Below, one piece after another: positions 22,405 to 63,837 of a stretch of 64,000 nt of DNA. A program made the position numbers and the translations under genes. Location: the NCBI RefSeq assembly GCF_000455125.1, contig NZ_AUWR01000012.1:62001-126000 (forward strand), read 5' to 3'. Position 1 is the stretch's first letter. Each line of letters starts with the position of its first letter. This DNA comes from Mycobacterium sp. UM_WGJ. GTDB lineage: Bacteria; Actinomycetota; Actinomycetes; Mycobacteriales; Mycobacteriaceae. Below the pieces are notes generated by a model that saw only the letters and a list, made by a program, of their open reading frames with translations, was not told the DNA's origin and did not search any database.

Positions 22405-22431
22405 TGATCCGCCGGGCGCGGCGCGCCCAGC

Positions 22432-22612
22432 ACAACGGGCAGGTATTCGGACTCGCAGGCACGCACCGAGGTGCTCCTAATGGCCGTCGCTTCCCAGTCG
22501 GTGGGCGAACCCGTGACCAGTGCTTATGACGGCGGTCGTTCCTGCATACCGCTGCGGGACAGTCCCGGATTCTCACCGGGTTCCCTCTTGCGCTCCACGG
22601 AAAACTGCGTAA
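22432..22612 (-). ncRNA. cobalamin riboswitch upstream of metE
   Basis: The minus strand carries the hallmark elements in order. CCGGTGAGAATCCGG is at 22579-22565, followed by GGGACTG and CCCGCAGC. Next come a GGGAAGCGACGGCC-type core near 22493-22480 and the B12 box AGTCCGAATACCTGCC at 22453-22438. This is the adenosylcobalamin aptamer known upstream of mycobacterial metE. Ligand binding should repress metE and perhaps the downstream MTHFR gene. Confidence 0.93.
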
Positions 22613-22678
22613 ACCGCGGTGCGCTCGATGCCGAGGCCGCCTGGCGGCGACAACGGCAAACCAGTTGCGTGATCGAGG

Positions 22679-39094: not shown

Positions 39095-40513
39095 GTGACA
39101 CGTGTGTCATTTATAGAACCGTTACGGAGCCGAACCGCGACGGTGATCTGGCGCCCGTTCGCTAATGTTGTGCCGGTAGACACCACCCTCGACACCCCGC
39201 CTGCGCGTTCGCTGACGACTCGCCTGACTGCGTGGGCACCCTTGCTGCTGGTTGTCAGCATCGCGGCGCGACTCGCGTGGACCTACCTCACTCCACACGG
39301 CGCAAACTTCGTCGACCTGCACGTCTACATCAGCGGCGCGGCCGCGCTGACACAGCCCGGCGCGCTGTATGACTACGTCTACGCCGACCAGACCCCGGAC
39401 TTCCCGCTGCCGTTCACCTACCCGCCGTTCGCCGCGGTGGTGTTCTACCCGCTGCATTTCCTGCCGTTCGGGTTGGTCGCGCTCTTGTGGCAGATCGGCA
39501 CGATGGCCGCGCTGTACGGCGTGGTGCGGCTGTGCCAGCGACTGCTCGGCGGGTCGGCCTCGCTGAACCGCGGAATTGATGCGGCGGTTCCAGCTTCGCC
39601 TCTCCTTCGTCGAGCCTCGCTGAACCGCGGAATTGATGCGGCGGTTCCAGCTTCGCCTCTCCTTCGTCGAGCCTCGCTGAACCGCCGGGCCGCGATGTTG
39701 TGGACGGCAGCCGGGATCTGGACCGAACCGTTGCGCAGCACCTTCGACTACGGCCAGATCAACGTGATCCTGGTGCTGGCGGTGCTCTACGCGGTCTACA
39801 GCCGGCGGTGGTGGGTGTCGGGGCTGTTGGTCGGACTGGCCGCCGGGGTCAAGCTGACCCCGGCGATCGCCGGGGTCTATCTGGCCGGAGCGCGGCGCTG
39901 GGCCGCCGCGGTGTTCTCGGCCGTGGTGTTCGCCGGCACCATCGCGGTGTCGGTGTGGGCCACCGGTGATCAGGCCCGCCGCTACTTCACCGAGTTGCTG
40001 GGCGACGCTCACCGGGTAGGCCCGATCGGAACGTCGTTCAACCAGTCCTGGCGGGGCGGGATCTCCCGCATCCTTGGACACGACGCCGGTTACAGCCCGC
40101 CGGTGCTGGTCGCGATCGTCGTCACCGCGGTGCTGGCCGTGCTCGCCTGGCGGGCGCTGAACAGTACTCCCACCGGACCCGACGTCCTGGGCTCGCTGCT
40201 GGTCGTCGAGCTGTTCGGGCTGCTGGCGTCACCGATCTCCTGGACCCATCACTGGGTGTGGCTGCTGCCCCTGATGATCTGGCTGTTCTACGGGCCGTCC
40301 TCGGATCGCCCGGGCGCCCGCACCCTGGGTTGGGTCTGGCTTACGCTCACCCTCATCGGCGTGCCGTGGCTGCTGAGCTTCTTCCAGCCGACGATCTGGC
40401 AGGACGGCCGGCCGTGGTATCTGGCATGGGCCGGCCTGGTTTACATCGTCGGCGCGCTGGTCACCTTGGGCTGGATGGCGACCACGCGGGTCACGCCGCG
40501 AGAACCCGGTTGA
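39095..40513 (+). CDS. pimE: PimE mannosyltransferase with in-frame tandem repeat insertion
   Basis: 472 aa from GTG 39095; GTG 39170 (447 aa) is an alternative. PimE (Rv1159, 431 aa) is a GT-C membrane enzyme that adds an alpha-1,2-mannose from polyprenol-phosphate-mannose to AcPIM4, leading to AcPIM6. About ten transmembrane helices are present. The catalytic Asp of GT-C enzymes is in ANFVDLHVY (about residue 75). FDYGQINV and [11 protein letters not shown] are conserved. Between RLLGG and AAMLWTA, where the M. tuberculosis protein has only a few residues, lies a 19-residue unit repeated twice ([19 protein letters not shown]) plus a third start. Whether the enzyme tolerates it is unknown. 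Confidence 0.9.
39557..39685 (+). repeat. 57-bp tandem repeat (2.3 copies) inside pimE
   Basis: Copies 39557-39613 and 39614-39670 are identical, and a third begins at 39671 and matches for 15 bp. The unit starts GCCTCGCTGAACCGCGG and contains TTGATGCGGCGGTTCCAGC. Being 57 bp (19 codons), it keeps the frame. A related sequence, inverted and shortened, lies at 63722-63755, so this is a dispersed element, not a local slip. Confidence 0.9.
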
Positions 40514-55438: not shown

Positions 55439-56050
55439 CTAAATGAGCATGTCCAGCAGCGCCGCACCGGCGGCCTGGAACGCGTCGCCGAGGTCGCCCA
55501 CGTCTCCCACTTCCAGTGCGTCGACGCTCAGTGCCGTGTCGGGCAGGCTGAAGTCCGCGAGTCCCGGCAGTTGCGACAGCTCGACGGGCAACCCAGGGTC
55601 GGTGGCCTCGGAAAGGTACGGGTAGTAGGGGTAGTAGGGGTAGTAGATCGTGCCCACAAGGAACGGCCAAATGAGCTGCTCGACTAGGTTGATCGGAGTC
55701 CATATCAGTGATGCCGCCAGCGAACCGACGATCGGAACCCAGCTCAGTGGTGACAGCAGCACGGACACCACGCTGTTGAAGGCGTATATCACCTCTGCAA
55801 AGAAATACCCGAGCCCGAAGAAGCCGGCCGCCGCGTCGCCGGCGACCTCCGACAGCTCGGTTGATCCGAGGGATCCCAGCAGGTCTGGCGCCAGAGATTC
55901 CAGCAGATCGGCGGGCACTACCTCTGCGGTCAAGACCACCGGGTGGAGTTGGACTTCGGCGCGCGGCAGGACCGGGGTGACTGCCGGGCTGGCCGCGAGG
56001 CATGTTGCCGCGACCAGGGGTGCAAACCAAGGCAATGCTGAGGTCTTCAT
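55439..56050 (-). CDS. secreted hypothetical protein with YYP repeats, 203 aa
   Basis: ATG with an ideal GAAGGAG site. Signal peptide at residues 1-30, then PE/PPE-like exported phrasing (EVQLHPVVLTA). Two hydrophobic stretches (about 78-100 and 105-135) flank the motif IYYPYYPYYPY (about 137-147), encoded by a 9-bp tandem repeat near 55625-55650. The C-terminus is acidic and Leu-rich (DALEVGDVGDLGDAF). No known family. It sits where M. tuberculosis has PE12, between Rv1171 and fbiC. Confidence 0.7.
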   Translation of the reverse strand: MKTSALPWFAPLVAATCLAASPAVTPVLPRAEVQLHPVVLTAEVVPADLLESLAPDLLGSLGSTELSEVAGDAAAGFFGLGYFFAEVIYAFNSVVSVLLSPLSWVPIVGSLAASLIWTPINLVEQLIWPFLVGTIYYPYYPYYPYLSEATDPGLPVELSQLPGLADFSLPDTALSVDALEVGDVGDLGDAFQAAGAALLDMLI

Positions 56051-56442
56051 GATAACTCCTTCGCAGTTTGGCCTAGTAAATAACGGTTCTCAATCAGTGT
56101 CAAGAAGTCCGCTTTATCGGATTATTCGACAGGTAATCGGGCGTGGCTCCCATGTGGCGGCTGAATGGGCGGGCTATTTCGGGCCCGTTGTGAGCTGCGG
56201 GGCCGTGATGGCCGTGTTTACCGGCTGTGAAAACCTCAGGTATTGGGCACGGTGGCGTGCGGTGTCCGCGGCGCTGGGCTGTTTACGGATCTTGGCTCCA
56301 CCCGCGTAAGCGCACCTTGGCTGGCGACCTGGATGCCGCTTGCGGGTCTGAAAGGTATTGGCGAACCGGAGGCCGCTTGCGGGGTCTGGAAAGGTATGGG
56401 GGTGTGGGGAATGAACAGCGGACGGTTCCGAGTTGTGGTGAT
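56051..56442 (+). other. 392-bp gene-free region with promoters and a near-tandem repeat
   Basis: The first 100 bp are AT-richer (CTAGTAAATAACGG, TTATCGGATTATTCG) and probably hold the leftward promoter of the YYP-protein gene. The rest reads toward fbiC. Two imperfect copies of GCCGCTTGCGGGTCTGAAAG-GTAT lie at 56335-56361 and 56372-56400. A plus-strand frame ending at 56446 overlaps the fbiC start but lacks coding character, so I do not call it a gene. Confidence 0.5.
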
Positions 56443-63707: not shown

Positions 63708-63721
63708 GGCACCTCCACTCC

Positions 63722-63755
63722 CGGCGGTTCAGCGAGGCTGGGACCGCCGCATCAA
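63722..63755 (-). repeat. shortened copy of the pimE repeat element
   Basis: On the minus strand this reads TTGATGCGGCGGTCCCAGC next to CTCGCTGAACCGCCGGG. The same two blocks flank the middle of the 57-bp pimE unit (39557-39689), with about 20 bp missing between them here. It is intergenic, 15 bp upstream of the nuclease start. Confidence 0.6.
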
Positions 63756-63837
63756 CCCCGTGAACAGTCGGGGACGCTACCAAACTGCCCCGACACGATC
63801 GATGCGTGCTCGCCGCCGCGCACCATAGGCTGAGCGG

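Follow-up and report, generated by a model that had tools for sequence, protein, structure and literature searches.

The 57-bp unit repeated in tandem within the pimE gene of Mycobacterium sp. UM_WGJ belongs to a dispersed repeat family of Mycolicibacter and is not private to pimE. With good confidence, the pimE unit can be regarded as a copy of a non-autonomous, short interspersed palindromic repeat, similar to the Rickettsia palindromic elements (RPEs), which would have been inserted singly, tolerated in a protein linker and amplified locally. The features identified in the window (the whole analysed stretch of 64,000 nucleotides) are collected in Table 1.

Table 1. Location of pimE, its repeat units and the second element copy within the window
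Feature	Position	Strand	Characteristics
pimE	39095..40513	+	polyprenol-phosphomannose-dependent mannosyltransferase (GT87); intact 472-aa ORF including the insertion
Repeat unit 1	39557..39613	+	57 bp, 19 codons
Repeat unit 2	39614..39670	+	identical to unit 1
Partial third unit	39671..39685	+	15 bp; identical to the start of unit 1; right end of the element
Degenerate second copy	63720..63758	-	middle missing; just upstream of an ATG

The pimE reading frame begins with a GTG codon, and its product matches the GT87 family (2.8e-50). Two features assign this product to PimE; (i) a score of 641.8 bits against the NCBIfam equivalog PRK13375, whose cut-off is 413; (ii) the retained catalytic aspartate, D74, which is the counterpart of D58 in the alignment to M. 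abscessus PimE (9dm5) and is invariant in 40/40 rows of an alignment composed of the window and 39 of 80 PimE loci. Two identical 57-bp units with a further 15 bp, in frame within pimE, had been proposed in the first-pass annotation, and the proposed in-frame coding minisatellite is present as described: the maximal period-57 run begins at 39557, ends at 39685 and spans 2.26 periods. No other perfect period of 12-200 bp occurs in the window when a run of matches of at least one period and at least 20 bases is demanded. The TRF score of this array, 259, is the highest of the seven arrays detected in the window. Other tandem arrays of the window include a 37-bp unit in two copies (56322-56397) and 9-bp units (55616-55646).

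The count of two units at pimE was read from a draft assembly of 116 contigs, in which the array lies within a contig. The exact duplication could in principle be an artefact of short-read assembly, as the genome is a draft and the window's contig itself ends inside an element copy, but this is very improbable: the pimE array is internal to its contig, relatives carry the same element at the pimE loop, and arrays of at least two units also occur in the single-contig genome G022 and in the chromosome record of locus L084.

The distribution of the unit reaches far beyond pimE. In the window's own genome 42 matches to the unit were found, the pimE copy included, with one to four units per place. 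The nearest named genomes, judged by PimE, belong to Mycolicibacter (M. terrae complex), and 11 of the 12 named relatives searched carry the repeat; all 11 Mycolicibacter are positive, with at least 34-53 matches each, and M. fortunisiensis is the sole relative among the 12 without any match. In the wider genus, 5/60 genomes match (three with at least 10 matches, two with one), and an exact core pattern is present in 24/396 genomes, 22 of them with 6-86 copies and two with 1-2, while the same pattern read backwards as a control gives no match in the 396. The window's own genome is part of both draws, and the larger one probably overlaps the named relatives. Arrays in relatives reach seven units, which sets the overall range at 1-7. 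The end of the window's contig falls within an element copy (L062, 2059-2129), and the family therefore probably fragments draft assemblies. No account of this repeat was found in the openly accessible literature searched.

These results bear directly on the origin of the pimE array. Slippage of native pimE sequence could have created a coding minisatellite restricted to this gene and tuning the activity of the enzyme, as may be suggested by the identity and frame of the two units and by the different loop lengths of related species. Such a gene-private origin is rejected, since the unit is present at dozens of other places in the genome and clade, and the native loop of non-carriers is devoid of it; the reading as a whole is accorded hardly any probability. 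The earlier proposal of a recent duplication at pimE stands as far as local copying is concerned, which is likely, whereas the unit itself is part of a dispersed repeat family at the clade level.

The number of units was compared at 12 pairs of orthologous places recognized by flanking sequence (one of them by a single flank), and it differs in 11 of the 12, being equal in one; these pairs are biased, as the loci of the other species were the best matches to a query of 2.3 units. The gene mptA, encoding another mannosyltransferase, contains 1, 3 and 1 units in three genomes (L058, L179 and L274), and L071 and its orthologues contain 1, 3 and 4 units. At the four places shared by G000, the window's own genome, and G022 the ratio of units is 1:1 for L057, L058 and L066, and 1:3 for L071.

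At the pimE loop, element sequence is present in 5/16 aligned sequences, always in frame, and lacking in 11/16. The window has 2.3 units and M. engbaekii one unit, and remnants shorter than a unit remain in M. heraklionensis 1211594.5, M. nonchromogenicus and M. longobardus. The alignment check suggested in the first-pass annotation shows that the amount of repeat at this loop varies between species, from none through partial and one unit to 2.3 units. In M. engbaekii the added sequence is exactly 57 bp with CGCCGG on both sides, and the native site has one CGCCGG (by eye). The closest named relative, M. heraklionensis 1211594.5, shares 92.9% identity over pimE and has less than one unit, so that a recent local duplication, as had been proposed, is likely, and the unit was probably duplicated recently in the window genome. 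The insertion into pimE and this later duplication are separate events.

The tree of the pimE region was built from 15 of the 16 aligned sequences (3,671 columns), with L090 in the alignment and absent from the tree. The window groups with L079 and L080 (support 1.0), M. engbaekii adjoins this clade without a support value, and M. longobardus, a carrier of a remnant, is nested among non-carriers (0.98). As this remnant lies among non-carriers, the element must have been gained at the pimE loop at least twice, or else gained once and lost again, and a single insertion into pimE is not assured from these sequences.

The insertion corresponds to the stretch between residues 135 and 139 of M. abscessus PimE (9dm5), which indicates a short native loop in that structure. 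The alignment, taken together with the topology in the available part of PMC12041525, places the loop, by prediction, between transmembrane helices 2 and 3 on the cytoplasmic side. The 43 inserted residues include seven K/R and two D/E, a charge in keeping with a cytoplasmic loop. The same available part of PMC12041525 assigns both D58 and the substrate cavity to the periplasmic face. The suggestion that loop length changes PimE activity, and with it the tuning assumed for a gene-private minisatellite, is consequently unsupported, as the predicted loop is cytoplasmic, away from the periplasmic D58 active site. Several species have retained or shortened the unit without loss of frame, and any influence on PimE would most likely be neutral or slight.

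The structure of the element was derived from 69 rows, with one unit taken per place. Its core is GGCGGTYCCAGCTTCGSCTCTCCTNCGTCGAGSCTCGCTGAACCGCC with inverted arms, and its middle is strongly conserved. The arms, GGCGGTTC-CAGC and GCTGAACCGCC, are subterminal, and the pair counts are moderate. Pairing between them is seen in 90.1% of cells, and the double changes number 10, compared to a shuffled mean of 1.2; they are strongest at one outer arm pair (GC 60, CG 4, AU 2, GU 2). Controls with slid arms gave up to 15 double changes, yet were paired in only 17-43% of cells. RNAalifold did not choose the arm stem and preferred another fold, the RNA folding energy of the single sequence is ordinary, and folding as DNA gave z -1.0 for the plus strand and -2.0 for the minus strand. 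A strong RNA hairpin is thus unsupported by folding energy and by stem selection; the support for the hairpin is moderate, and the palindrome is graded as likely only. The spacing of units is 57 bp in 10/10 intervals of coding arrays and in 65/74 elsewhere, and the spacer between units is alike within an array and different between arrays (by eye).

The kept inverted arms, with some double changes, and the strongly conserved middle could also be features of a structured cis-acting RNA or DNA element (REP- or BOX-like, a terminator or a processing hairpin) with an intergenic function, its copies in genes being accidental. Most of the 80 scored places are outside genes, as this explanation would predict. 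It is nonetheless considered unlikely: no Rfam family reaches the gathering score at the pimE repeat, the RNA folding energy is ordinary (with the mentioned z of -2.0 for the DNA minus strand), the element has no fixed orientation with respect to the adjoining reading frames, and a copy is often absent from the same site in relatives. The only Rfam match in the window is a cobalamin riboswitch (RF00174, 86.8 bits, 22421-22634, minus strand).

The insertion of a dispersed repeat, the preferred reading, was followed at 12 element loci, each set against the orthologous sites of two to six relatives (60 aligned stretches). At 5/12 loci the element-bearing sequence is longer by exactly 57 bp than at least one element-free relative; these are L056 (five of five relatives), L058 (two of four), L061 (three), L071 (one of two) and L073 (three of three). 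At the other seven the difference is never 57 bp against a clearly element-free relative (for example 69 for L074, 48-60 for L057), the remaining relatives at the five loci likewise give other lengths, and for all these later trimming or other indels must be assumed. The difference of 57 bp between L054 and G022 was not counted as an empty site, the G022 allele resembling a remnant. The intergenic L066 site may be prone to insertions in general, as its element-free orthologues L235 and L238 carry other, unrelated extra sequence.

The left and right flanks of the same copy match each other more than permuted pairs do, chiefly in an interval from about -13 to -9, counted from the core. This comparison covered 59 places, after removal of two degenerate copies and of eleven loci that are orthologues of another row or belong to its array. 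The excess at this interval has p<=0.0002 in each of G000 (38 places) and G022 (40 places), with the reservation that the interval was picked from the 59-place comparison, partly on the same G000 places; a few single positions outside it also reach z of about 2. There is accordingly a short direct repeat at a CCGCCGG-like target, and as it is short, GC-rich and overlaps the element end, target duplication and microhomology are indistinguishable. The fit of L071 is poor, with only about GGTT common to both sides.

A codon-usage classifier recognized in-frame copies within genes at 8/40 places in G000 and 12/40 in G022; for the latter, a single contig, the 40 places are those among the matches listed, beyond which a few more degenerate copies exist. 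The element copies are depleted in genes, with 20/80 places in genes compared to 339/541 random positions of the same stretches (Fisher p 3.5e-10), although the counts of the two genomes are not independent, as they share some places. Pfam adds two G000 copies missed by the classifier, L074 (SRAP) and L073 (in the stretch before a ScpA domain), which changes p to 4.3e-9; L073 is the weakest in-gene case, as the copy precedes the domain and depends on an assumed start. The in-gene count omits L048, an open frame scored as non-coding with a stop in the left flank, and L062 at the contig end.

The hosts in G000 are a carbon-nitrogen hydrolase, acetoacetate decarboxylase, FadD5, MptA, SRAP, ScpA, a UvrD-like helicase with a PD-(D/E)XK nuclease domain and a SIP-ABC transporter, where the copy is located between the two parts of the protein. 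In other species the hosts include a FAD monooxygenase-like protein, a patatin-like protein and a DEDD exonuclease; the product of L054 has no protein family match. The frame is kept in 40/40 allele comparisons at eight coding loci and in 10/16 at three intergenic loci, with L061 left out of both counts for its ambiguous coding status (it would add 4/4 in frame).

Four of the six reading frames of the element consensus are without stop codons, and over these open frames the 20 distinct coding sites in G000 and G022 are distributed 13:5:1:1 (chi-square p=0.00025, hand tally). The frame used by pimE is a rare one, used by pimE alone, and most coding sites use another. The uneven frame use might point to a domesticated peptide module, spread into genes as its main frame encodes a useful linker. 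This is held to be quite improbable, given that the copies are under-represented in genes, that purging of harmful frames explains the bias equally well, and that pimE itself has a rare frame.

For the interspersed palindromic repeat, the following sequence of events is proposed. A trans-acting activity would place a single unit into a CCGCCGG-like target, and the junction would then be marked by a short direct repeat. An insertion within a gene could be read through, because a clean insertion comprises 57 bp, i.e., 19 codons, and four of the six consensus frames are open. The copy would survive where the protein has a tolerant linker, and recombination or slippage, for example between the junction repeats, would then multiply the unit in place or trim it. 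With regard to the trans-acting partner, the window genome gave no match to the Y1_Tnp profile (PF01797), which matches in 5/14 control genomes, and mobilisation by a RAYT is rejected for this genome. In G022 no longer element with both ends was found when up to two mismatches were allowed; the halves occur solo, with no pair 0.2-3 kb apart (by eye).

A more far-reaching version is tentative and judged somewhat unlikely. According to it, Mycolicibacter would carry an undescribed mobile coding module of 57 bp, mostly stop-free and palindromic, moved in trans to CCGCCGG-like sites, which would repeatedly write linker peptides into PimE, MptA, FadD5 and others, grow by tandem copying and have a length shaped for frame compatibility. 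If this were true, the length of protein loops would evolve through a mobile element.

The element is of interest for several reasons. The entry of mobile repeats into proteins would become traceable, with empty sites and about 20 in-gene sites available in two genomes, and related species show several stages of the process: absence, one unit, remnant and array. Dispersed copies can resemble gene-specific minisatellites and may break draft assemblies, and the arrays might serve as typing markers in the M. terrae complex.

The described element shares features with several known types of repeats. REP elements are short palindromic dispersed repeats, and the Mycolicibacter element is likewise short and dispersed, and probably palindromic. 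It departs from the REP/RAYT system in the lack of a Y1_Tnp match in the window genome and in the presence of copies also within genes. With MITEs it has in common the small size, an apparently non-autonomous nature, inverted arms and a short direct repeat at the junction. In contrast to MITEs, no parent with the same ends was found in G022 and the arms are subterminal; the direct repeat, about five positions of excess flank match, overlaps the element end and is not cleanly separable from it, and L071 fits this pattern poorly.

MIRUs are dispersed and mainly intergenic. The available parts of PMC4213456 and PMC2453075 describe them as mycobacterial tandem units of 77 and 53 bp, variable in number, and the former reports those between senX3 and regX3 as confined to M. 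leprae and the M. tuberculosis complex. The Mycolicibacter element resembles them as a dispersed tandem unit whose number differs between species, and is set apart, by description, by its 57-bp unit, inverted arms and in-gene copies.

The RPEs are, in the available part of PMC10969869, short palindromic interspersed repeats of about 150 bp, belonging to one bacterial group, that lie in frame inside unrelated protein genes and add a peptide to the product. In-frame insertion into unrelated protein genes is likewise found for the Mycolicibacter element, a likeness by description. Unlike the RPEs of Rickettsia, its unit has 57 bp and forms tandem arrays, and kinship between the two is not claimed. 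By analogy, the Mycolicibacter element would be a second case, in mycobacteria, of in-frame coding repeats best known from Rickettsia, as portrayed in the same part of PMC10969869.
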